Assembly (NCBI GenBank): GCA_027067855.1
Contig: JAMOUX010000036.1
Location: forward strand, 1 to 64,000
Source of the DNA: Candidatus Fermentibacteraceae bacterium
GTDB lineage: Bacteria > Fermentibacterota > Fermentibacteria > Fermentibacterales > JCC-6
Reading direction: 5' to 3'
DNA length: 64,000 bases
This document shows positions 440-15,494 of this stretch, one piece after another. The notes beneath the pieces were generated by a model. That model worked only from the letters and a program-made list of their open reading frames with translations. It had not been told where the DNA came from and ran no database searches. Made by a program: the position numbers and the translations under genes. Within the stretch, counting starts at the first letter, position 1; the number at the start of each line of letters is the position of its first letter.

Positions 440-2448
<2,009 letters not shown>

Positions 2449-2449
<1 letters not shown>

Positions 2450-4110
2450 CAACCTCCCAGTGAATCCAGGCGGATCTCGAAAGCGGCGACCGGCCTGGTT
2501 ATCCCCCAGGCCTCCAGCACCGCCGGGTGAACTTCGCCCACGACCCCGGAATCCCGTCCGTCCATGACGATGCCGGCGCACCTCCCCGGAACGAACCTGG
2601 GGTCATCCCCCGGTTTCAACTCCAGGGTCACGTCCCTGGCCAGGCACAGGTGACCCAACACGGAATGGACGTCCCCGAAATTCGCTTCGTTACCGCAGAC
2701 AACCCCGGCGAGGAATATCTCGGTGGCGCATACACCTTCGTCATCGGCCCGGAGCACCTCGCCCACTTCGAATATCCTGTGGGGATACCAGGCGTAGGCG
2801 CTGGTGCTCTCCACTTCCAGCAACCCGGGAACCAGGGAGTTCCGCACCACGCCGTACTCCGCGGTCATGGGATTGGCCAACGCCACCGGCGGCTCCGGGG
2901 CCCTCGTGCGCACGGCGGCCTTCTCCATGCCGGTGAGCACCGGCCTGAGTATCTCCTCGAACCCGGCCCCGACCATCAGCAGGCGCACGGCATCGGCCAG
3001 GTCGGCCAGGGGGGAAGACCGACCCCTGGTAAACCCGCCGGGCAGAAGCGGTTCGAAGCTGCCGTAACCGAGTGAGACGGCGATGTCCTCCACCATGTCC
3101 GCCATGTGTATCCCGTCGTGCCTGTAGGGGGGCATCACGCCGGTCACCGAGTTTCCATCGATCCGGACTTCCGGGTAGTCCATGGCCCTGAGAGCATCCG
3201 CGACTTCCCCGGGCTCCAATTTCACCCCCAGGATGGATTCGATATCGTCCATAGTCGCCGTCATCCCGTCGGCGAAACGAACCGGACACAACCCGGTCCT
3301 CCCGGGATGTCCATCGGGGTAGACGACCCTTATCGGCGTTATCACGGCGCCCCTGTCCTCCAGGTTGCACGCCAGGATGGTCGCCATGAGCTGAACCGTG
3401 TTCCAGTCCGTCCCGGTCACCTCGCAGAAAAGGTTGGAATCCCCGGGACGCACCCTGCCGGTGCCCCGGCTGTTCAGTATGGGCGGAAAGGACAGTATGC
3501 CGCCCGACGAGTCCTCGATGACCGGGTATACCGACGCCCCTTCCAGTATGTGGGCGTACTCCCTGCCCGTATCGGTCTTCCCGAGAACTTCCCGCAGGGA
3601 CATTTCCCCATCCTCGCCCAAGGGAACGTACCTGGTGTCCGGCGACGCCCCGCGGTACTTCACCGGAAAAACGATCTCGTCCAGCCTGTAAAAACCGGCG
3701 GCGGCCGTTTTCCTGTTCCTTCCGAAGGATGACGCGAGCTTTTCCTGGACCTGTATCAGGGATTCCAGGCCCTTTTCGTCAGGCGCCCAACCGCAAGCCG
3801 TGAAGGCGGCCACGAAGGGTCTGACTTCCTCCAGCGATCCGTCCACGCGAATCTCCAGGTCCGTCCGGTTTGCTGACGAGAGGTGCTTTTCGGGACCCCG
3901 GGCATGGCATCTCAACGCCCTGGCGATTCCCTCGGTGCACCAAAGGTCCGGCCTGTTCGTGTCGTTGAGTTCAATCTTGAGCCGGTCGCCGTCCGAGTTA
4001 TCTATTTCTCCCTTGACCAGCGACAGGAGGTCGGCCAGGGCGGCGTCGCCGGGATCGTCGATCCCGGCCAGGGTAAACAGGTCCTTCCTGCTCAGGTCCA
4101 CCTTGGGCAT
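2449..4110 (-). CDS. pheT: Phenylalanyl-tRNA synthetase beta subunit, archaeal/eukaryotic type
   Basis: This is the beta chain of the (alpha-beta)2 enzyme that charges tRNA-Phe. At 553 residues it is much shorter than the usual bacterial PheT of about 800. It lacks the N-terminal tRNA-binding (EMAP-like) and C-terminal anticodon-binding domains of that form. The segment NDTNRPDLWCTEGIARALR near residue 50 is the signature of the archaeal/eukaryotic short form. B3/B4, B5 and a catalytic-like core follow. It begins one base after pheS ends, giving the order pheS-pheT-uvrB. A bacterial lineage using this form is unusual; it is known in spirochaetes. Confidence 0.95.
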
Positions 4111-4111
4111 C

Positions 4112-5680
4112 TCATTCCTCCCTTCCCGTGAGGAGCCGGTCGGGCTTGACCTTCATGGAGCGGAGCCTGGAGAGGTCCGGGGTTACCAGGTCCCTTATAT
4201 CATCCAGGCCCATCGCCAGCATGGCCATTCTGTCCAGACCGAGCCCCCACGCGATAACCGGGACGTCTATCCCCAGGGGGAGACGCACTTCCGGCCTGAA
4301 GAGCCCCGCGCCGCCGCCTTCGATCCAGCCCAGCCTCGGATGGAGGATGTGCATCTCCACCGACGGTTCCGTGAATGGGAAGTACCCCGGCAGGAACTTG
4401 TAATCCCGGGCGCCGGCTATCTCCCGGGCGAAAAGCCCCAGGAGACCCATGAGATGTCTGAGCGTCATGTCCCTTCCCAGGACTATCCCCTCCACCTGGA
4501 AGAAGTCCGGCAGGTGGGTGGAATCCACCTGGTCGTACCTGAAACAACGGGCCATGCCGAAATACTTGCCCGGAATCTCCGGCCCGGAAGCCAGGGTCCT
4601 GGCGGAAAGAGCGGTGCCCTGGGAACGCATCACCGCCTTCAGCGCCATCTTCCTGTCGAACGGATATCCCCATCCCCTGCCGCCGGTACCTTCACCGTTC
4701 TCGTGGGCCGAGGCCACGTTTTCCAGGAGATCCCGCGGCGGAGGCGGCACGGTGTAACCCTCCCGGAGATGGTAAACATCGTGAATGTCCCTGGCCGGAT
4801 GGAACTGCGGCATGAACAGCGCGTCATTGTTCCAGAACTCGCTCTCGGCGACGGAACCTTCCATCTCGGTGAATCCGAGGGAAACGAATCTCTTCCTCAC
4901 CGTGTCCAGGAACTGTTTGTACGGATGCAGCCTTCCGGTGTGTATCCTGGCCGGTGGTATGTCCAGGGCGTATTTCCGGAAATCGGCGTCCTTCCAGGAG
5001 CCCTTCGACAGGACCTCGGGAGTGATGGCGCCTATCGTCGTCCTGCCCGACGCCTCCTCCAGGGCTTTCCTGCCCTCGCCGGTTATCTCCAGGCTTCGTT
5101 CCACCACCGTGACCACCTGGAACTCGGCCTTCCCCCTGCCTCTTTTCGGGCTTCTCTCCCTCACCAGTCCGGCCACGTCCTCCGGCAGCGTGGAGATCTC
5201 CAGTTCCTTCTCACCTTCCCGCAGCGGCAGGTACACGTGTTTCCATACCCTGCTGAACACATCTTCATGCATTCCGGGGACGAGTTCCACCCCGTCGCCG
5301 TCCTTCCTGACCAGGCCGTCCTTCAGCAGGGCTCCGAATGCGCTTCCCCACCGTCCCCTGTCGAAAGTAACGTCTTCCTGTGCTTCGCGGAGCGTCCTGA
5401 CGCCGTCGGTCAACTTTCGGAGCAACGCCGTCTCCGGTGTGCTTCCGACGTCCAGGTTGGCCCGGCCCACCGGACCCAGGCGGACGAATTCCCTCTCGGT
5501 CCTGTCCACCTCCCTCACCAGTCCCCTGGAGAGGAGCCACTCCACGGCTCTCCTGTAAGAGCCCTCGTCGGGAAGCCCGCTGCGTTCCAGTATCTCTTTC
5601 TCGGTGGATTTTCCGTTCTTACCGAGGAAGGAGAGCAGAATCACCTCCAGCGGATGGAGGTTCCGTTCTTCAGCAGTCAT
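4112..5680 (-). CDS. pheS: Phenylalanyl-tRNA synthetase alpha subunit, archaeal/eukaryotic type
   Basis: This catalytic class II aminoacyl-tRNA synthetase subunit has 522 residues, against about 340 for the normal bacterial form. The first 200 or so residues form winged-helix-like segments (for example LHPLEVILLSFLGKNGKS), as in archaeal and eukaryotic PheRS. The class II core follows, with motif 2 near MARCFRYDQVDSTHLPDFFQ and motif 3 GLGLDRMAMLAMGL near the C-terminus. The ATG at 5680 overlaps the stop of the upstream caspase gene as ATGA, so translation is probably coupled to it. Together with pheT this is a complete archaeal-type enzyme, and no bacterial-type copy is present in the window. 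Confidence 0.95.
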   Translation of the reverse strand: MTAEERNLHPLEVILLSFLGKNGKSTEKEILERSGLPDEGSYRRAVEWLLSRGLVREVDRTEREFVRLGPVGRANLDVGSTPETALLRKLTDGVRTLREAQEDVTFDRGRWGSAFGALLKDGLVRKDGDGVELVPGMHEDVFSRVWKHVYLPLREGEKELEISTLPEDVAGLVRERSPKRGRGKAEFQVVTVVERSLEITGEGRKALEEASGRTTIGAITPEVLSKGSWKDADFRKYALDIPPARIHTGRLHPYKQFLDTVRKRFVSLGFTEMEGSVAESEFWNNDALFMPQFHPARDIHDVYHLREGYTVPPPPRDLLENVASAHENGEGTGGRGWGYPFDRKMALKAVMRSQGTALSARTLASGPEIPGKYFGMARCFRYDQVDSTHLPDFFQVEGIVLGRDMTLRHLMGLLGLFAREIAGARDYKFLPGYFPFTEPSVEMHILHPRLGWIEGGGAGLFRPEVRLPLGIDVPVIAWGLGLDRMAMLAMGLDDIRDLVTPDLSRLRSMKVKPDRLLTGREE

Positions 5681-8043
5681 CGTATCCCTTCTCCTCGTTG
5701 ATTCACCTTCCAGAGCAGGATGTCCCCGTCGAGGAACATTCCCTGTTCGGGACCGGGAACCGCACCATTTCCCTCCAGGACGGCGCCGCAGGAAGGACAG
5801 ATCCCGACGCCTTCCCCGGCTTCCGTTCCGCATTCCGGGCAAAAATCCCGCAGCCTGCGGTCCACGTAATTCATGAGTTCGATCGCGGAAACATAACCGT
5901 CGCCGTCGAAATCCGCATCTCCCCCGGAACCCCGGAGCAATATCGGGGTGAGCACTCTTTCGGAAACTTCCAGGTCCTCTCCGGCCGCGGTGAGTATCAT
6001 CACTCCGTCTCCCGGACCGAAATCGTCGACGAATCCCCCTGAATGGCAGGCGTCGATGAAGAGGAACACCGGGGCCTCCGCCAGGGAATCCACCGCCGCC
6101 GCCACCCGGTCGTCGGAGACGTCACCGTCATACAGGCAAATGTATTCGTTGGCCGAGTCCTCTTCTTCCGAGCCGCCGGAACCGGGGTGGGAACGCTTGC
6201 CGTGACCGCTGAAAAAGATCACGACCCTGTCCTCGGGCCCCGCGCGTTCCAGGAGCCGGCGCATTACCGAAAGGAACCTCTCCGTGGTGCTCATGCCGTC
6301 CACCATGAGTACCACGTGGTCAGCCGGCACACCCTGATCTTCAACCAGGAAATCGTAAAACTCAACGGCGTCCATGCCGGCCCTGTTCAGAACATCGGCG
6401 GACGACGGGTATCCGCTGATACCCACGGCCATCGCCCAGATCTCCCCATCCGGAGAAGGCCCGGCCAGCCGGGTTTCCCTTATCCGGTTCACTTCCAATT
6501 CGTAATCCGTCGCGCCTTTCCTGTCGTAAAGATAAACGGTTATCCCGTACTCGGCCTCATCCCCGGAATAGACTTCCACCGTCTCATCCCCGGCGGCATC
6601 GAAGGAATTCATATATCCCGCCGCCATCAGGTCCACTCCCGGCCCGGACACGAAAAGGTCCAGGTCCACCTTCCCGTTCTTCCCGGAAAGGGAAATGTCC
6701 AGTATGGTTCCCGGCTCGGCCGTGATCCTGTGGAAAGCCACCGGGTGTTCCGTATCTATCCGGCCGGAATGAAAATCTCCCGTTGCAACGGCTCCCGGGG
6801 GACTCAACTCCAACCCGGCCTCGCCGGAAATTTCCGACGAGGAATAAAACGGGTCTATCCACACCGTGTCACCGGCGGAAACGTACAGCAGGAACGCCTC
6901 CTCTCCCCTGGGGTCGGCAAAGGTCACCGCGGCCTCGCCCTGGTTTCTGAAGACCCTCACATCACCGTCCCGCTTCTTTTCGAAGGCCACGCTCACCACG
7001 TAGAGTCCGTCCCGCGGGGGAGAAAAACCCACGGGACGGAGAGAACCGTCCCCCACCCGCAGGGTCCTTCCGGCATGCGCCGCCCTCCAGACGTCTCCCG
7101 CCTCCCGGAGACGGAGGGTGTAAGCCGCTTCTTCCCCGTCACCTATGTCGTAGGGCAACACCTCGACCACCCTGTTCCCATCACAGGGTTCCAGCATCAA
7201 CGTTTCCGGGGAGGTGTACGACCTGCCGGAAGCCAGGTAACCTCCCCCGCCGTCCCTGACCACCAGGTCCAGGTCGGCCCGGGTATCCGGTACGACCAGG
7301 TCCACGAAGGTCACGACGCCACTTGGCGGTATCATGTACCTGTGAACCCGGGACAGTCCTATAGACCCGGACCCGCCCGTGGGCCCCAACGCGGGAAACG
7401 CGCCGGAAGACTCGACCATCAGCCGGTAAACGCCGGAGCCGGTCTTGCCGTACCTGTTCACCACCAGGGTCACCGTCTCGCCTGCCAGCACCGGGACCGT
7501 AACCGCTTCCCGTCCCTCCCGAGACATTCCGCTGTTCCACAAGTTCATGTCCGTTCCGTAAACGTCCAGACCCAGGTCGGTGTCATCCTTTCCCTCCAGC
7601 ACGAAAGTCCACCGGCCGTCCCCGGCGGGAGTGAATGTGTACGTTTCGGCCATGACGTTTCCGGCCAGCTTCCCGCGCACCCCGGCCCCCGGATCCAGTT
7701 CCCCGGGAAGAACGGTGTCCAGGAACACGGTGACGGGTTCATTCCCGTAATCAGACAGCGCTTTAAGTTTGATGTAGAACCAGTAACCGGTGAACGCCGA
7801 AAGAACCAGGGGCTTACCGGGATCGGCGGTGCAGACGCGGGAACCTTCATCATCGTAAGCCCGCATTTCGACCGCGGGAGAGGATTCCAGCTTCAGGCAG
7901 ACGTAATCGTCCTCCAGTATCCTGAACCATCCCTCACCGTCTCTCATCACGATCACGGCTTCGTCGCCGGCTTCCAGCGTGGGTATGTCCACGGCATCGG
8001 GAAGCGCGGCCATAACGAGGGCGATGCACAACGGGGAGAACAT
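5677..8043 (-). CDS. Exported caspase-like (C14/metacaspase) protease with EF-hand loop and zinc ribbon
   Basis: The protein has 788 residues. It begins with a hydrophobic, probably cleaved signal segment (FSPLCIALVMAALPDA). A long beta-rich region to about residue 525 follows, with repeats resembling bacterial pre-peptidase C-terminal (PPC) domains. The caspase domain starts at IWAMAVGISGYP and carries the dyad His614 in FFSGHGKR and Cys666 in IDACHSGG. A textbook EF-hand/dockerin loop DFDGDGYVSAIE lies at 711-722. A four-cysteine zinc ribbon (C735, C738, C749, C752) follows. ATG 8043 has an AAGGTGG ribosome site; a GTG 30 bases upstream is a poorer choice. The stop overlaps pheS as ATGA. 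Calcium dependence and substrates are unknown. The signal segment lacks a basic N-region, so export is probable but not certain. Confidence 0.9.
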   Translation of the reverse strand: MFSPLCIALVMAALPDAVDIPTLEAGDEAVIVMRDGEGWFRILEDDYVCLKLESSPAVEMRAYDDEGSRVCTADPGKPLVLSAFTGYWFYIKLKALSDYGNEPVTVFLDTVLPGELDPGAGVRGKLAGNVMAETYTFTPAGDGRWTFVLEGKDDTDLGLDVYGTDMNLWNSGMSREGREAVTVPVLAGETVTLVVNRYGKTGSGVYRLMVESSGAFPALGPTGGSGSIGLSRVHRYMIPPSGVVTFVDLVVPDTRADLDLVVRDGGGGYLASGRSYTSPETLMLEPCDGNRVVEVLPYDIGDGEEAAYTLRLREAGDVWRAAHAGRTLRVGDGSLRPVGFSPPRDGLYVVSVAFEKKRDGDVRVFRNQGEAAVTFADPRGEEAFLLYVSAGDTVWIDPFYSSSEISGEAGLELSPPGAVATGDFHSGRIDTEHPVAFHRITAEPGTILDISLSGKNGKVDLDLFVSGPGVDLMAAGYMNSFDAAGDETVEVYSGDEAEYGITVYLYDRKGATDYELEVNRIRETRLAGPSPDGEIWAMAVGISGYPSSADVLNRAGMDAVEFYDFLVEDQGVPADHVVLMVDGMSTTERFLSVMRRLLERAGPEDRVVIFFSGHGKRSHPGSGGSEEEDSANEYICLYDGDVSDDRVAAAVDSLAEAPVFLFIDACHSGGFVDDFGPGDGVMILTAAGEDLEVSERVLTPILLRGSGGDADFDGDGYVSAIELMNYVDRRLRDFCPECGTEAGEGVGICPSCGAVLEGNGAVPGPEQGMFLDGDILLWKVNQRGEGIR

Positions 8044-8057
8044 GGGAAAACCACCTT

Positions 8058-8079
8058 CCACGAATCCGACCACGAATCC
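8058..8079 (-). repeat. Short tandem direct repeat upstream of the caspase gene
   Basis: The 10-base word GGATTCGTGG occurs twice with a 12-base period (8079-8070 and 8067-8058). It lies just upstream of the ribosome site of the caspase gene, in an 87-base gap. It could be a regulator site in the leader or chance. No convincing promoter was found in the gap. Confidence 0.4.
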
Positions 8080-8130
8080 CCATGGAAACGTACAATAAAT
8101 AAAGGAGGACCGCGGCGGGTATGCCGGGGG

Positions 8131-8835
8131 TCAGTTCTCCTTCCCGGATTCCATGAAATCCGAAACGAAGGAAGCGAAATCCGGATAGAGCAGGCTCACG
8201 TTTTCGCGATCCCTGAGTCTTACGGCCATGTCCCAGCAACACAGAAGAATGTAACCCAGGAGCCTCCGACGGAGCAGCATGACGGCCGGAACGGCTTGAC
8301 CGGGAAATCCCAGCCTCAGGATGAAGGATTCCTCGGGAATCACGGGAGGCGGCCAGGGAGAGACCGAGAACTCCAGGCTCGCGTCGGGAAAACTCCCGGT
8401 TCTCATCATGGCCCGGAACAATTCGAAATCACCTCCGACGTGATGGAGGGCGCTTCTTACCTGGTTTTCCGTTCTTATGGAATTCGCGGCGGGCGAAGGA
8501 AAAGAGGCGGTGAACACGACGGGTTCGTCCCTGGGACAACCGAGTTCCAACAACGCCCCGGATTCGGCCAGGCAAGCCTCGAAAAGCCTGGTGGCGGTAT
8601 CGGGTGGAACGGGTACGCCGGCGCGGCCCATGCCGTGAATCGTGTTGACGTACCTGGCCAGCTTCTCCACCCGCCCGCCGGAAGGGGTTCTCGTTATTTC
8701 ATTGACATGCATCCTGAGGGAGTCCAGGCCTTTTACCATCACTTCCGGCTTCCTCCCTCCCCCCCAGACAGTCGCGTAATACAGCAGCCCGGCCACCTGG
8801 GCTCCGTTCCGGAAATTCGACGGGAATCTTTTCAT
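8131..8835 (-). CDS. Hypothetical protein, 234 aa
   Basis: I do not recognise a family. The ATG at 8835 overlaps the stop of the Xer recombinase as ATGA, so it is an operon member. The sequence looks globular and mixed alpha/beta, with no signal peptide. One moderately hydrophobic helix lies near the C-terminus (AVMLLRRRLLGYILLCCWDM). The N-terminal half contains LYYATVWGGGRKPEV. Codon use matches the neighbours. Placement between xer and the caspase gene gives no clear functional hint. Confidence 0.85.
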   Translation of the reverse strand: MKRFPSNFRNGAQVAGLLYYATVWGGGRKPEVMVKGLDSLRMHVNEITRTPSGGRVEKLARYVNTIHGMGRAGVPVPPDTATRLFEACLAESGALLELGCPRDEPVVFTASFPSPAANSIRTENQVRSALHHVGGDFELFRAMMRTGSFPDASLEFSVSPWPPPVIPEESFILRLGFPGQAVPAVMLLRRRLLGYILLCCWDMAVRLRDRENVSLLYPDFASFVSDFMESGKEN

Positions 8836-9722
8836 TGCAGGGATCTCGGGTGATACCTGTCCACCACCGACCTCAGCCGGGAACAGTCCACCCCCGTATA
8901 TATCTCCGTGGTACTGATGTCGGAATGACCCAGGAGTTCCTGGATCACCCTCAGGTCGGCTCCTCCCTGGAGAAGATGAGTGGCGAAGGAATGCCTCAAG
9001 GTATGCGGGTGCACCGCGGTTTTTATACCGGCCTTCTCCGCCGATGTCCTGACGATGTTCCAGACAGTCATCCTGGAAAGCGGATTTCCCCTGTAGGTCA
9101 GGAACAGCACGGGCGTGACGGAACCCCGGGCCAGCAGCGGCCTGGCTTCGTCCACGTACAGTGACAGCCACCTGACGGCTTCGCCGCCGACTGGAACTAC
9201 CCGCTCCTTGGCCCCTTTTCCCAGGGGACGCACCATATGCTGGTCCAGGTGAACTCTTGCCACGGTCATCCCGGTTATCTCGCTCTCCCTCAGGCCCGCC
9301 CCGTAAGCCAGTTCCAGGAGCGCCCTGTTCCTGACGGAAAGAGGATCACCCTCCCGCCAGACTTCCAGCATGGCCTTCACCGCCTTCACGCTCAACGCGT
9401 GGGGGAGCCGTACCCCCTTTCCGGGAGACGGGAGCAGCATCGCCGGGTTGTCTTCCCGCAGGCCGGTTACCTGCAGGAACCTGTAGTAGCCCCTCAAGGC
9501 AGAAAGCTTCCTCCTGACGCTGGAAGGCGATAATCCCGAAGATGAGAGGTGGAATACGTAATCCGCCAGAACATCCCTGGAAGCACCCTTCACATCGATC
9601 CCCGCCGGGGACGCCCAGGACAGGAAATCCTCAAGATCGCCACGGTACGCCTCCAGGGTGGTCAAAGCCAGTTTTCGCTCCAGGGCACAGTATTCCAGGA
9701 ACGCCTCCGACGTCTCATCCAT
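8832..9722 (-). CDS. xerD: Site-specific tyrosine recombinase, XerC/XerD family
   Basis: Xer recombinases resolve chromosome dimers at dif. The 296-residue protein has the N-terminal SAM-like core-binding domain (about 1-85) and a C-terminal catalytic domain. All active-site residues are present: Arg145 (GAGLRESE), a lysine in GKGAKER (169 or 172), His240 and Arg243 (HPHTLRHSFATHLL), His266 (LLGHSDIS) and the nucleophile Tyr275 (TTEIYT). Length and neighbours suit a housekeeping Xer rather than a phage integrase; no att-like repeats flank it. It overlaps the upstream gene by 8 bases. XerC versus XerD cannot be decided from sequence alone. Confidence 0.93.
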   Translation of the reverse strand: MDETSEAFLEYCALERKLALTTLEAYRGDLEDFLSWASPAGIDVKGASRDVLADYVFHLSSSGLSPSSVRRKLSALRGYYRFLQVTGLREDNPAMLLPSPGKGVRLPHALSVKAVKAMLEVWREGDPLSVRNRALLELAYGAGLRESEITGMTVARVHLDQHMVRPLGKGAKERVVPVGGEAVRWLSLYVDEARPLLARGSVTPVLFLTYRGNPLSRMTVWNIVRTSAEKAGIKTAVHPHTLRHSFATHLLQGGADLRVIQELLGHSDISTTEIYTGVDCSRLRSVVDRYHPRSLQ

Positions 9723-10902
9723 TTCTGGCGAGCCACGCTTTCAGATCCTCGCCCCCGCCACGCCGCAACCCCCTGGGAGGAAGCCTGCGGTCCAGGGAGA
9801 CGGTGACACCCCTGGATTCAAGCTGGTGAGCCGCAAGGACGGCGTCCGTATGATCATCGTACTCCCGGAGCATGACCGGGGCCTTCTTTACTGTCTCCAT
9901 CGCTTCCAGGCGGGACATGCCCAGCACTTCCTTCAGGGCCCGGGCCACGTTATTCTCGCTATCCCTGCCGGGCTTGCAGAGAAACAGGCCCAGGAAACCA
10001 TCCGGAATCCCGCCGTCTTTCCCGGAACCGCTTTCCGAGTCATCTAGGACCGGGGGCGTCAAGCTTTCGTCTCCCGGCATCGGGGACGGCGACCGGGAAG
10101 ACTCCCGTACTCCCGGAACCTCCTCCGGGGCGAGCACCGGGGGTTTCCCGGCCATGCCTTCCGGTAACCGAATTTCCGGAACTCCCGGAGTAAAACGCAG
10201 AGGCGGTTGGAAAAACAGGACGCCGTCTTCCGTTTCCATTCTGTCCCGGGGAGGCGGGCCGGTCATGTAACCATCGGGAAACTCCACGACCGGCGGCTCA
10301 TCGACCGTGGGACCGGCGGCGGTCTTCTCCGGCTTCCCGCCGGTGGAGGAAACCGCGCTTACCCGGGTCACGCGACGTTTACGGGACGAATCCGCAGCGA
10401 ATACCGCACCGGATTTCCGCCTGGGGGTAACGGCTCCCGGAATAGCGGCTTCCATCTCGATCCTGACTATTCCACCGGCCCCGGCCACCAGGCTTTCCAC
10501 CTTCCTGGCCGTTTCCAGATTCACTCTCCTGCTCAACGCGAACGGCATCCTGGACAACCACCCCACCACATGATCCTGGGGCAGCCTGGTGAGTTCCTGA
10601 AGCTTGCGCCTGAGCCTGGTCCTGTAGCCGGGTTTGTAATTGACCAGTATGACCCTGTACAGCTGTGGGGGGCCGAGCCCGGGACTATCGTCGGGCAGCA
10701 CCCTGCAGGTGAGCCCCCTGTCCCTTTTGATTCCGTCGGCCAGTTCCTGAGCCTCGGCCTCGGTCAGGCCGCCGCACACGAACCCACGTCCACCGGCGAA
10801 TTTCCCGAGGATCTCCACCGGATCGAGACCCGTCCGAAGCGACAGCAACCGGACAGTTTCCCTGGAAGGCTCGGTCCCCAGGATTTTGACCTTCCACTTC
10901 AT
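9715..10902 (-). CDS. Protein with three ribosomal L7/L12 C-terminal-like modules
   Basis: No named family is recognised for the 395-residue whole. Three segments follow the beta-alpha-alpha-beta-alpha-beta pattern of the L7/L12 C-terminal domain: about 3-70, 80-150 and 313-388. The middle one (VILVNYKPG, then RRKLQELTRLPQDHVVGWLS, then ETARKVESLVAGAGGIVRIE) parallels L7/L12's VILKAAG, KAVRGATGLGLKEAKDLVE and EALKKALEEAGAEVEV segments. The third has NVARALKEVLGMSRLEAME. Between modules 2 and 3 lies a basic-to-proline-rich linker of about 150 residues. There is no signal peptide. It sits 24 bases after the LysM gene and overlaps xer by 8 bases. The function is unknown; binding of another protein is an inference. 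Confidence 0.85.
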   Translation of the reverse strand: MKWKVKILGTEPSRETVRLLSLRTGLDPVEILGKFAGGRGFVCGGLTEAEAQELADGIKRDRGLTCRVLPDDSPGLGPPQLYRVILVNYKPGYRTRLRRKLQELTRLPQDHVVGWLSRMPFALSRRVNLETARKVESLVAGAGGIVRIEMEAAIPGAVTPRRKSGAVFAADSSRKRRVTRVSAVSSTGGKPEKTAAGPTVDEPPVVEFPDGYMTGPPPRDRMETEDGVLFFQPPLRFTPGVPEIRLPEGMAGKPPVLAPEEVPGVRESSRSPSPMPGDESLTPPVLDDSESGSGKDGGIPDGFLGLFLCKPGRDSENNVARALKEVLGMSRLEAMETVKKAPVMLREYDDHTDAVLAAHQLESRGVTVSLDRRLPPRGLRRGGGEDLKAWLARNG

Positions 10903-10926
10903 CTCATCGCAGTTCCGGACAGCCTT

Positions 10927-11946
10927 TCAGATCTGTTCCCTGACCAGTTCCACCTTGTCGCCCACGGCTACCAGGTCAGGTGTGGAAACGGAGAATATCA
11001 ACACCGCCGATGTCTTGTCACGGGTGTCGAGAACTATCATATCGGCCACTTTGACGTCAGCGGCGGAACTCTCGTCGGACCGGTCCTCCGCCCGGGTTTC
11101 CTCGTACATCGAGAAAATGTCACCAACCTCGAGCCCGTCTTCGGAACCCCTGTCTATGTAGACCACGTCGTAGGAATAGGCCCTCTTCATGCAGGGATCC
11201 TTGAAGGCCACCACGCAGGCGTCGAGTCCGTTCACCGTTTCCGAAGTCACCACGGGCACCGGGTCGGCGGCGCTGTAGGGCAGAACCATGTCACCGACGT
11301 TGACGGGAAGGTAGGAATGTTCCAGGAGAACCACGCATGAACCCTCGTCCACCGACATGACCCTGCAGATACCCGCCACCCGGTATACCCTTCCCATTTT
11401 CTCGCCGGTCTCGGGATGACGTACCTCTTCACCCGCTTCCATCAGCCTGTAGAGCCGTCCTTCCCGCACTCCGTCATTCTCGCCGATGTCCAGGGCCAGG
11501 AGGTCCCCTGTGTACGAATTGACATCATGGAAAGGATCATCGTCTTCGACATCGATCTCAACGACGTAACCCAGGGGGGAAGGAGGAACCTGTGATATGA
11601 AACCGGCGGTCTCCAGCACCATCCTGCTTATCTGGGGAGTACTGTCGAGATCCGAAAACAATATCAAATCCTGCTCGGGGTCCGCCGGCCGGGAAACTCC
11701 GGCCTCGGCTTCCAGGTCGGGAATGACTATGACGTCTCCGGGAGTCAGGCATTCCACTCCCCGAAGCGACGGATTGGCAGCAAGTATCTCCTCCCAGTGG
11801 AAAGGAGTTCCGTAGTACCGGATGGAAAGGTCCCAGAGCGTATCTCCATACGCTATCTCGTGAGTCCTGTCGCAACCGAAGAGCACGGTGGCCGGCCCGG
11901 CGGCGAGCAGGGCCAGCATCGGCAGCACGAAAGTCAAATGCTTCAT
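10927..11946 (-). CDS. LysM-domain envelope protein
   Basis: The 339-residue protein starts with a signal peptide (MKHLTFVLPMLALLAAGPA) and a cysteine in VLFGC that may be a non-ideal lipobox. A single LysM domain follows (AYGDTLWDLSIRYYGTPFHW to TPGDVIVIP), which binds peptidoglycan glycan strands. The C-terminal part contains beta-rich blocks such as VGDMVLPY, VEVGD-like turns and VAVGDKVELV. These resemble LysM proteins with a flagellar FlgT-C-like tail common in uncultured Gram-negatives. ATG 11946 is chosen because the GGGAGG site is 9 bases upstream; ATG 11952 would leave 3 bases. It has its own strong promoter and leads an operon toward xer. Confidence 0.88.
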   Translation of the reverse strand: MKHLTFVLPMLALLAAGPATVLFGCDRTHEIAYGDTLWDLSIRYYGTPFHWEEILAANPSLRGVECLTPGDVIVIPDLEAEAGVSRPADPEQDLILFSDLDSTPQISRMVLETAGFISQVPPSPLGYVVEIDVEDDDPFHDVNSYTGDLLALDIGENDGVREGRLYRLMEAGEEVRHPETGEKMGRVYRVAGICRVMSVDEGSCVVLLEHSYLPVNVGDMVLPYSAADPVPVVTSETVNGLDACVVAFKDPCMKRAYSYDVVYIDRGSEDGLEVGDIFSMYEETRAEDRSDESSAADVKVADMIVLDTRDKTSAVLIFSVSTPDLVAVGDKVELVREQI

Positions 11947-12005
11947 TTTCATCGACCTCCCGGATGGTCCCATTGATGAATGATTGAACTTCATAACTTC
12001 ATAAT

Positions 12006-12034
12006 ATTCTAACTTCGAGAATTGAGCAAGTCAA
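12006..12034 (-). promoter_or_regulatory. Sigma70-type promoter for the LysM gene operon
   Basis: TTGACT (12034-12029), a 17-base spacer and TAGAAT (12011-12006) lie on the minus strand. Both boxes match 5 of 6. The leader to the ATG at 11946 would be about 50 bases. Confidence 0.78.
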
Positions 12035-12058
12035 ACACCCCTTTTAGCATGCCGGATT

Positions 12059-12793
12059 CTACCAGTTTGGAGAAAGGTAGAGAGTGGGATAACCCACAAC
12101 TCCCGGGGTTTCCACGACCTCGACGACATAGAATCCTCCGACCCCCGCCACGGATTCGCGGTTGGGCCTGTTGACGGCAAGCATCAGTTCCCCGTCTTCG
12201 GTCACCTCCCCGGTCCAACCGGATCCCACGGCAACCGGTGCGTCGTCATTCACCCTCATCACCAGCTGTCCGTTGGTGGCTCCGGGAACCAGGGCCATGG
12301 CCGTGGAAAAGTAGTCTATCCCATCGGGGCCGCAGGTCCCGGTCTCCATGGATACCGATCCCTTCGCCCGTATCACCAGCATTTCACCCGCGGTAACCCT
12401 CAATCCCGTGTCCACCCATCCGGCCGACGCGGGCACTTTCACCTCGATTCTCCGTTCCGTCGATGCCGGACTCCAAACCACCGACGCGACATCTCCGGCA
12501 TCGAAGACCGATTCGCCTTCCCCGGTGAGCACCACGAATTCTCCATCGTGGAACTCCACGCGTCCCCTGCAGCCCGCCGAATTCTCCCTGGGGAAAAGCC
12601 TGGCCTCCTCCGTCGGAAGCATCCGCTCTCCGGTATCCATCACCACCCTGGCGCCGTCCACGAGTTCCAGGCGGCCCGACAGGATGTCGCCGTCGGGCAT
12701 CACGAGCCTGTCGGGCTTTCTTTTACAACCGGCGGCAAACAGCACGGCCAGCCCCAGGATGAACATCCATCTCCGGTGTTCATGGAAGTTCAT
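12059..12793 (-). CDS. Lipoprotein with PA-IL (LecA)-like C-terminal domain
   Basis: The N-terminus MFILGLAVLFAAGCKRK is a signal peptide with lipobox AAGC. Residues of about 30-110 form an SH3-like small beta region (MPDGDILSGRLELVDGARVV). From about 118 on, the segment VDTGLRVTAGEMLVIRAKGS through ELMLAVNRP matches the pattern of PA-IL-like galactose-binding domains found attached to bacterial lipoproteins. The 244-residue protein starts at ATG 12793, overlapping the lon stop as ATGA. Sugar binding is inferred from the fold only. It is the last gene of the TonB/PEGA-hsp20-lon operon. Confidence 0.85.
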   Translation of the reverse strand: MNFHEHRRWMFILGLAVLFAAGCKRKPDRLVMPDGDILSGRLELVDGARVVMDTGERMLPTEEARLFPRENSAGCRGRVEFHDGEFVVLTGEGESVFDAGDVASVVWSPASTERRIEVKVPASAGWVDTGLRVTAGEMLVIRAKGSVSMETGTCGPDGIDYFSTAMALVPGATNGQLVMRVNDDAPVAVGSGWTGEVTEDGELMLAVNRPNRESVAGVGGFYVVEVVETPGVVGYPTLYLSPNW

Positions 12794-15129
12794 TCGGTCA
12801 CCTCCAGGCCGGGTATGAATTCACGGACCACCTCTTCAACCGTATCCACGAGCCTGAACTCCATCGACTTTCTCGTCGTCTCGGGAACCTCGTCCAGGCT
12901 CCTGGAATTCTCACGGGGGAGAAATACGGTTTTCACACCCGCCGCCAATGCGCCCAGGATTTTTTCTTTTATGCCTCCCACCGGCATCACCCTGCCCTGA
13001 AGGCTCACCTCGCCGGTTACGGCCATGTCCGGCGTCACAGGCTTACCGGTAAGAGCGGACAGCAGTGAAACCAGGATGGCCACGCCCGCCGACGGGCCGT
13101 CCTTGGGAGTCGCTCCCGCCGGAACATGTATGTGAATATCGATGTCATTGAAATCTCTGTCGATCCCGTAATCGGAACAGTGAGACCTTATCCAGGACAG
13201 CGCGGTCTTCGCCGACTCCTGCATGACGTCTCCAAGCTGACCGGTAAGCATGAGCCGCCCCTTGCCCTTCATGATGGTCGTCTCCACCAGGAGCACCTCG
13301 CCGCCGGCCGGAGTCCATGCCAGGCCGGTACACACCCCTACCGCAGGCTTATCCATACCCTTTTCCCGGGTAAAGATCCGCGCTCCGAGGAATTCCGGCA
13401 GCCTGCCCGGAGTCACCACCACGGTTTTCTCCTCCCCCTCGGCGACTTTCACCGCTACCTTCCTGCATACCTTTCCTATGGTACGTTCCAGCTCCCTGAC
13501 CCCGGCTTCCCTGGTATAACCTTCTATTATGGCGCTCAACCCTTTTCTGCGGAACCTCAGGTGCACACCGGTCAACCCGGCATTCTTCATTTGCCTGGGC
13601 ACCAGGTACCTGGAAGCTATTTCCAGCTTCTCGTCGTGGGTATATCCGGGAATGCGTATTATCTCCATCCTGTCCCTGAGGGGGGAAGGAATGGTATCCA
13701 GGCTGTTGGCGGTGGTAATGAACTGGACCTTGCTCAGGTCGAAGGGTAAGTTGAGATAGTTGTCCCTGAAGGAAAAGTTCTGTTCGGGGTCCAGCACTTC
13801 CAGGAGAGCGGAGGTGGGATCCCCCCTGAAATCCCTTCCTATCTTGTCCACTTCGTCCAGCATGAAGACCGGATTATTGCTCCCGGCCTCCTTAAGTCCG
13901 TGGATTATCTTCCCTGGCATGGCCCCTATATACGTCCTCCTGTGTCCCCTTATCTCCGCCTCGTCGTGGATACCGCCCAGGGACACCCTTACGAACTTTC
14001 TTCCTATGGCCCCGGCTATACTCCTGCCGAGCGAAGTCTTGCCAACGCCCGGAGGCCCCACGAAACAGAGTATCGGAGCCTTGCCCCCGGGATTGAGCTT
14101 CCGCACGGCCAGGAACTCCCGTATTCTCTCCTTGACGTCCTTCAGATCGTAATGGTCCCTTTCCAGAATCCTCCCGGCCCTCTCCATGTCCAGCTTGTCC
14201 TTCGTGCTCTCCAGCCAGGGAAGGTTGAGCACCCATTCGAGATAGGTCCTTATCACCGCCACTTCGGGTATGCCGGGATTCATTCTCTCCAGCCTCTTCA
14301 GTTCCTCCATGGCCGCCTGGTAGACCTGCTCGGGGAGTTTCTTCTTTTCGAGCTTCTCCCTGAGTTCCACTGCCTCGGGATTCTCGACGTCGTGGCCCAG
14401 TTCCTTCTGGATCGCCTTCATCTGCTCCTTGAGGATGTACTCTTTCTGGTCCTTTTCTATCTCGCTCCTTACCTGCCCCTGTATCTTGTTCCGCAGGCGA
14501 AGGATCTTGATCTCCTTCTCCAGGATTCCCGAGAGATACTTCAGCCGCCGTAACACGTTGTCCGTCTCCAGTATCTTCTGTTTCTCCCCGATTCCCGTTT
14601 CCAGGCTGCCGGCCGCCAGGAAACTCAGCTTGTCGGGATCGTCGGAGAGTTCCATGAACTGGGTATCGTCGGGTATCGACCTGCTGAGTTCGAATACCTG
14701 CCTGAGCTGGACAGCCACGGTGTTGCGCCACGCTTCGAGTTCTATATCATCCCCGGGAACCACCGATTCCAGCTTTTCCACCCTGGCCAGCATGTACGGT
14801 TTGGAGGATTCCACGAACTCCAGTATCCTGAATCTCACCAAACCTCTCAGGTGCAGTCTTATGATGTTTCCCGGAAATCTGTACAACCTGTCGATACCGG
14901 TGACCGTTCCCACCCGGTACAGATCGGACTGGGTCACGTAGTTGTCGACCTCGCCCTTCAACGCCACCATGCCTATCAGCTTGTCGCCCCGCACGGCGTC
15001 GTCTATCATCTCCGCCACTTCGCCCCCGGCTATGGTCCGCGGGACCACAGTGTAGGGAAAGACCACCCCCTCCGGACTGGGAAGCACCGGCAACACCTCA
15101 GGCAGCTTGAAATCATCCATAACGTTCAT
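12790..15129 (-). CDS. lon: ATP-dependent protease Lon
   Basis: Lon is a cytoplasmic AAA+ serine protease that degrades misfolded and regulatory proteins. The 779-residue protein has the Lon N-terminal domain (LPVLPSPEGVVFPYTVVPRT), a coiled-coil linker, Walker A (GPPGVGKTS), Walker B (VFMLDEVDKIG) and the protease domain with catalytic Ser in KDGPSAG and Lys in LTGKPVTPD. Adjacent ATGs lie at 15132 and 15129; the second is better spaced from GGAGGGG and overlaps the hsp20 stop by one base. A long frame extension further upstream is antisense to nothing real and is discarded. Operon with hsp20 makes this a proteostasis pair. Confidence 0.97.
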   Translation of the reverse strand: MNVMDDFKLPEVLPVLPSPEGVVFPYTVVPRTIAGGEVAEMIDDAVRGDKLIGMVALKGEVDNYVTQSDLYRVGTVTGIDRLYRFPGNIIRLHLRGLVRFRILEFVESSKPYMLARVEKLESVVPGDDIELEAWRNTVAVQLRQVFELSRSIPDDTQFMELSDDPDKLSFLAAGSLETGIGEKQKILETDNVLRRLKYLSGILEKEIKILRLRNKIQGQVRSEIEKDQKEYILKEQMKAIQKELGHDVENPEAVELREKLEKKKLPEQVYQAAMEELKRLERMNPGIPEVAVIRTYLEWVLNLPWLESTKDKLDMERAGRILERDHYDLKDVKERIREFLAVRKLNPGGKAPILCFVGPPGVGKTSLGRSIAGAIGRKFVRVSLGGIHDEAEIRGHRRTYIGAMPGKIIHGLKEAGSNNPVFMLDEVDKIGRDFRGDPTSALLEVLDPEQNFSFRDNYLNLPFDLSKVQFITTANSLDTIPSPLRDRMEIIRIPGYTHDEKLEIASRYLVPRQMKNAGLTGVHLRFRRKGLSAIIEGYTREAGVRELERTIGKVCRKVAVKVAEGEEKTVVVTPGRLPEFLGARIFTREKGMDKPAVGVCTGLAWTPAGGEVLLVETTIMKGKGRLMLTGQLGDVMQESAKTALSWIRSHCSDYGIDRDFNDIDIHIHVPAGATPKDGPSAGVAILVSLLSALTGKPVTPDMAVTGEVSLQGRVMPVGGIKEKILGALAAGVKTVFLPRENSRSLDEVPETTRKSMEFRLVDTVEEVVREFIPGLEVTE

Positions 15130-15494
15130 CATGTCCCCTCCGCATTTCCGTCTCCGCCGCCTTTTATTTCTATCCGCCTGCGGGCCGGATGCTTGCGGGG
15201 GAGGACTATCGCGAGCAAACCGTTCTTCATCGCAGCCTTCACATCTTCCACCCTCACCTTGCCCGGAAGAACCACCTTGCGCCTGAACCAGCCGGTGTAT
15301 ATCTCTATGCTCTGAGCCAGTTCCCTGGCAGGCGGTTTTTTCATCCCTTTCAACACTATGCTGTCGGTGAAGACCGTAAGATCGACGTCGTCCCTGGTCA
15401 TACCGGGAAGTTCCACGAAAACCAGCCAGTTGTCGGCGGTCTCGTATATGTCCACCGCCGGCGTCCATTCCATTCCGGTATACCTGGACTGCAT
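15129..15494 (-). CDS. Small heat-shock protein, Hsp20/alpha-crystallin family
   Basis: This ATP-independent holdase chaperone has 121 residues. The alpha-crystallin domain runs from AVDIYETADNWLVFVELPG to KNGLLAIVLPRK, with the family pattern of P-G then beta strands and GLL-x-I-x-L-P near the end. It is followed by a short basic tail. It lies between the PEGA/TonB protein (7-base gap) and lon (1-base overlap), so it is co-expressed with Lon. No CIRCE-like inverted repeat was seen upstream. The ribosome site before ATG 15494 is weak, which suggests re-initiation after the preceding gene. Confidence 0.93.
   Translation of the reverse strand: MQSRYTGMEWTPAVDIYETADNWLVFVELPGMTRDDVDLTVFTDSIVLKGMKKPPARELAQSIEIYTGWFRRKVVLPGKVRVEDVKAAMKNGLLAIVLPRKHPARRRIEIKGGGDGNAEGT

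Follow-up and report, generated by a model that had tools for sequence, protein, structure and literature searches.

The window analysed here is a 64,000-nucleotide stretch of contig JAMOUX010000036.1 from the Candidatus Fermentibacteraceae bacterium assembly GCA_027067855.1, a genome of 1.86 Mb in 44 contigs whose closest named relatives are Candidatus Aegiribacteria/Fermentibacteria (Hyd24-12) assemblies. Its minus strand carries a complete gene (5677..8043) for a 788-residue C14 caspase-fold peptidase, with an ATG start at 8043 and a TGA stop at 5679-5677; the assignment follows from the open frame, a Peptidase_C14 match and occurrence throughout the phylum. A first-pass annotation, made from the letters alone, had described an exported caspase homologue in which a separate EF-hand/dockerin loop and a zinc ribbon come after the catalytic domain. 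The residue numbers it gave (H614, C666, D711-E722, CPEC and CPSC) are all correct; the strand, minus for the gene and for all its features located below, was left unstated. Our computational analysis places both the loop and the ribbon inside the modelled caspase fold, in a protein family kept across nearly the whole phylum.

The Peptidase_C14 profile matches the protein at 39.0 bits (cut-off, 21.4 bits) and matches every sequence of the alignment used to assess conservation, which comprises 30 family members from Fermentibacterota and a second, small phylum with 27–57% identity to the window protein. The catalytic residues His614 (SGHG; 6202..6204) and Cys666 (DACHSGG; 6046..6048) align with the catalytic His and Cys of metacaspases and are invariant in 30/30, in line with the intact dyad annotated earlier. 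Also identical in all 30 sequences are S612, D558, D664, D644, D645, C636, the loop residues D711, G716 and E722, and the four ribbon cysteines. When residues 521-788 were modelled alone, the mean predicted local distance difference test score (pLDDT) was 88 and the predicted template-modelling score (pTM) 0.89. Foldseek matched this model to the metacaspase 7qp1 (E 1.5e-10) and to GSU0716 (3bij, E 6.7e-10), with template-modelling scores of about 0.55-0.58 for 7qp1, 3bij and 4f6o; legumain and Yca1 were also among the matches. According to the model and the Foldseek matches, the caspase-fold catalytic domain spans residues 533-779 (5707..6447), EF-hand and ribbon included.

By the published scheme the protein would be classed as an orthocaspase. 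With orthocaspases and type I metacaspases (C14B; CgMCA-I 7qp1, Yca1 4f6o, TbMCA2 4af8) it has in common the fold, the His/Cys dyad, the S1 acids and D644-D645; it differs from them in the alpha4-alpha5 EF-hand, the ribbon before the last strand, the beta-sandwich modules and the leader. The S1 residues of TbMCA2 are Cys92, Asp95, Ser156 and Asp211 (PMC4357240). The last three align with D558, S612 and D664, and the place of Cys92 is not conserved. Because the S1-pocket acids D558 and D664 are retained and invariant in the family, the protease is predicted to cleave after Arg or Lys. The best single-sequence match in the PDB is the bacterial C14-like protein GSU0716 (3bij, E 5.4e-8), limited to residues 569-690, with the EF loop and the ribbon outside the matched part. 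The NCBIfam model NF047832 (EACC1-associated caspase) matches 30/30 members, and its match spans the EF loop; the score of 29.6 bits lies below the cut-off of 140, and membership was rejected.

Calcium loop and zinc ribbon in the p10-like half

The Pfam C14 match stops at residue 674 (profile positions 3-139 of 233), and the p10 domain of metacaspases was not detected by this profile; a p10-like half is present in the model. After Cys666 the models place, in order, a strand (681-685), a helix (698-709), the Ca2+ loop, a helix (720-731), the ribbon and a strand (776-779). Since strand-helix-helix-strand is the element order in the p10 half of caspases, the EF-hand can be read as alpha4-loop-alpha5 and the ribbon as the connection from alpha5 to the last strand. 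That strand, the last of the modelled caspase sheet, is part of the tail 759-779 (5707..5769) with its conserved PxPEQG motif. In the models, the single EF-hand sits within the caspase fold and not as a separate domain after it: the structure prediction that the first-pass annotation had proposed did return an EF-type helix-loop-helix, but one lying between two caspase-fold helices and before the final strand.

The EF-hand covers residues 698-731 (5851..5952; pLDDT 91-96) and holds the canonical 12-residue Ca2+ loop DFDGDGYVSAIE at 711-722 (5878..5913). Loop positions 1, 6 and 12 (D711, G716, E722) are identical in 30/30 members, and positions 3 and 5 (713, 715) are always Asp or Asn. Thus the model gives helix-loop-helix and the alignment gives ligands at 1, 3, 5 and 12 with Gly at 6, as expected of an EF-hand, while the Pfam EF-hand models score below their cut-off (11.7 vs 25.9 bits). 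The first-pass annotation had held that homologues without these residues would speak against its loop and ribbon; all 30 retain both the loop ligands and the four cysteines.

The loop also occurs outside the family. We sampled 36 C14 proteins with a recognisable dyad from other genomes (a few of these genomes are related, so the sample is not fully independent) and found the motif D.[DNS].[DNSG]G.[hydrophobic]...[ED] C-terminal to the catalytic Cys in nine of them, against a mean of 0.04 and a maximum of 1 in a shuffled control. Typical contexts are 'GLFTYFFLKGLRGAADKDGDGWVTVGEAYDYL' and 'STFTHHLLQGLQGKADLNHDGKITLDELFDY'. The loop is likewise present at 20 of 23 mostly Burkholderiales loci; these were retrieved through their similarity to the query and so do not form an independent sample. 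When 12 outside proteins were built into a profile, it aligned with residues 532-733 of the family, the one loop matched to the other (probability 99.9, E 6.5e-37). All 12 had been selected for carrying the loop, intact or degenerate, and the alignment therefore speaks for homology of position and not for frequency. EF-hand motifs were reported earlier in seven archaeal orthocaspases (PMC6426788). The idea that the loop is a lineage-specific add-on was rejected, since the same loop recurs in C14 proteins of other phyla.

Beyond the two phyla, the nearest relatives combine several PPC modules with a C14 domain and the loop. In one bacterial family of such tandem-PPC proteins (L163, L169, L170) the order is the same as in the window protein, PPC modules, C14 and then the Ca2+ loop at the same place, and L169 shares 32% identity with it over 221 residues (E 3e-26). 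Unlike the window protein, these proteins are without the zinc ribbon, and the alignment ends at residue 732.

The four-cysteine (C4) zinc ribbon, residues 735-752 (CPEC-x10-CPSC; 5788..5841), is placed between alpha5 and the last strand. Its cysteines, CPEC at 735-738 and CPSC at 749-752, are all identical in 30/30 members, and Zn_Ribbon_1 matches 24 of the 30. The ribbon that the first-pass annotation had found unusual is real and uncommon: no other C14 protein of the sample has one within its caspase fold, and among 385 genomes searched it is limited to Fermentibacterota and the small second phylum. Of the matches listed, those in other phyla end at or before profile position 218, leaving the ribbon incomplete, and only the two phyla reach the end. 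Our search of the open-licence literature turned up no account of a C14 protein whose zinc ribbon is internal; type I metacaspases have a zinc finger in the N-terminal prodomain (PMC6426788). The inserted ribbon, and not the Ca2+ loop, is the true novelty of the protein.

Distribution and gene neighbourhood

A single-sequence scan of the genome contigs gave no matches, and an alignment query gave 58 loci. The family is present in 39 of 42 Fermentibacterota genomes, mostly in one copy and mostly at full length, and in all 24 of those with at least 90% completeness and at most 5% contamination; it is missing from three genomes, all of them incomplete assemblies at 66–88% completeness. It is also present in 4/4 genomes of the second phylum. 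The first-pass annotation had suggested looking for the same architecture in related genomes, and it is widespread there. A search of the open-licence literature for a Fermentibacteria caspase returned nothing relevant.

Across the phylum, most of the fetched loci whose contigs are long enough share one gene order, lon, lipoprotein-like, LysM, L12-domain, xer, a gene of unknown family, caspase, pheS, pheT, uvrB (440-15468 in the window). At four Aegiribacteria loci (L034, L035, L038, L042) the flank yielded no match to the upstream genes, and pheS-pheT-uvrB still lie 3' of the caspase gene. In the second phylum the caspase gene is away from pheST. The shared gene order and the distribution together make a core-gene pattern. 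In the window, a Shine-Dalgarno-like ggaaggtgg (8051..8059, minus) precedes the caspase ATG by 7 bases, and the ATG of pheS (5678..5680, minus), directly 3' throughout the phylum, overlaps the caspase stop codon as ATGA.

Several minor observations concern these loci. The gene just upstream of the caspase gene (8131-9171, minus) belongs to an unknown family with no Pfam match and is kept beside it phylum-wide at 32–60% identity. Further upstream in the conserved block, a 395-residue protein (9715-10902, minus) has a domain like the C-terminal domain of ribosomal L7/L12 near its C-terminus, below the Pfam cut-off. Two copies of the caspase gene are damaged, by assembly error or decay: that at G035:C4:38343-40653 is broken over three frames, and that of Candidatus Sabulitectum silens (L065:5980-7578) is shortened by a frame change. 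The second-phylum records (L064, L066; genomes G060-G063) are labelled 'WOR-3' and 'Desulfuromonas sp. SDB', the latter name probably being wrong.

N-terminal modules and leader

Residues 18-524 (6472..7992) form five beta-sandwich modules of PPC/collagen-binding-like type in the full-length AlphaFold2 model (mean pLDDT 84, pTM 0.76), with limits that we set at about 18-112, 113-216, 217-316, 317-416 and 417-524. Foldseek ranks the tandem collagen-binding domain s3a-s3b of ColG first (E 6.6e-10), in keeping with PPC-like modules. The several PPC-like modules of the first-pass annotation correspond to these five modelled beta-sandwiches, of which Pfam recognises one as PPC, weakly, at 22.1 bits (cut-off, 25.9 bits); the PPC profile matches 27/30 family members.

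The modules are preceded by a hydrophobic leader (residues 1-16, 7996..8043), a putative signal peptide with no Lys or Arg and a pLDDT of about 39 over residues 1-10. A hydrophobic leader is seen in all relatives with an intact N-terminus. PPC-like beta-sandwich modules are typical of exported proteins, and together with the leader they argue for export, plausibly to the cell envelope or surface. Signal-like helices at the N-terminus are already known from prokaryotic caspase homologues (PMC3501461).

Proposed role and its alternatives

We consider it fairly probable that the gene encodes an exported, Ca2+-requiring, Arg/Lys-specific C14 processing protease with five beta-sandwich modules, in which the ribbon is a structural staple. 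At the cell envelope or surface, the N-terminal modules would position the protease or bind its substrate. We infer that metal occupies both sites: Ca2+ in the EF loop would fix alpha4-alpha5, and hence the substrate loops, so that activity would depend on Ca2+ outside the cell, and Zn would only staple the ribbon insert. The role would be to process or turn over proteins of the envelope or surface constitutively. A constitutive role is preferred to an optional one in cell death or defence because almost every genome of the phylum carries the gene, usually in one copy, at a fixed place in a housekeeping block.

Several points weigh against this picture. In most members the leader is without a basic n-region, and it shows no clear site for cleavage, so that export is only plausible and the signal segment of the first-pass annotation stands as a hydrophobic leader; zinc ribbons, moreover, are mostly cytoplasmic. 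Zn_Ribbon_1 falls just under its Pfam cut-off (E 3.2e-5, 24.0 vs 25.0 bits). An EF-hand that stands alone, without a second one to pair with, may have a weak affinity for Ca2+. Finally, of the metacaspase Ca2+ site, which in CgMCA-I/TbMCA2 consists of Asp173, Asp189, Asp190 and Asp220 (PMC9622860, PMC4357240), only half is retained. D644 and D645 are the same in every member, whereas Asn (N632, N673) stands in place of Asp173 and Asp220 in 27/30 members; the adjoining D674 is invariant. Because the site is only half retained, we infer that Ca2+ control has at least partly shifted from it to the EF-hand.

The same leader and ribbon could instead belong to a protein held in or at the membrane and facing the cytoplasm, its leader serving uncleaved as an anchor and its ribbon having an intracellular task, for example the binding of nucleic acid or protein, next to the housekeeping genes pheST, uvrB and lon. 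The absence of basic residues from the leader, the usual cytoplasmic location of zinc ribbons and the ATGA overlap with pheS would all fit. We nevertheless think this unlikely: the PPC-like modules are of a kind typical of exported proteins, the block that contains the gene also encodes lipoprotein-like and LysM proteins, and in the second phylum the gene lies away from pheST.

A cell-death or anti-phage effector is suggested by the caspase fold and by the PADLOC caspase model (47.2 bits, E 4.5e-13), whose match is confined to the p20 part and may be given by any C14 domain. No defence partner was found among the scanned neighbours and a hydrophobic leader is present; near-universal occurrence, usually in single copy, and phylum-wide synteny in a housekeeping block make such an effector improbable, and assignment to a defence system was rejected for want of supporting context. 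The first-pass annotation had proposed that a dockerin, or separate EF-hand, tethers the protease; on this reading the partner would be a cohesin or another protein, and the ribbon would belong to the docking arm. The canonical loop with every ligand conserved is compatible with it, but we rejected it as very improbable because in the models the loop joins two helices of the p10-like half before the last strand and is homologous to loops of unrelated C14 proteins, is single where dockerins have two calcium-binding repeats, and is accompanied neither by Dockerin_1 in the source genome nor by Cohesin in any of the 42 Fermentibacterota genomes.

Returning to an exported processing protease, a bolder form of this proposal may be offered tentatively, as a possibility that we rate well below the proposal itself. 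The protein would be a near-universal core protease of two phyla whose p10-like half is a Ca2+ EF-hand/Zn ribbon switch flanking alpha5 and setting the active-site loops. It would work only after export to a Ca2+-containing compartment. There it would mature surface proteins and be the equivalent, with a caspase fold, of the gingipain-like C25 peptidases.

Bacterial caspase homologues have mostly been treated as patchy, optional genes of stress or cell death, and here one is fixed and syntenic across nearly a whole phylum. A fixed gene, as a rule in single copy, points to a housekeeping role and offers a clean system for studying caspase-fold proteases outside cell death. The internal EF-hand, shared with C14 proteins of other phyla, would offer a Ca2+ switch other than the metacaspase site already known.

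A further observation concerns peptidases of the Peptidase_C25 (gingipain/PorU) family. They are extraordinarily abundant in the phylum, being found in 42/42 Fermentibacterota genomes with 10–33 matches each, and clan CD proteolysis therefore appears to be a central trait of it. The source genome (G000) has 12 such matches, for example at C38:7812-8882 and C38:12320-13393.

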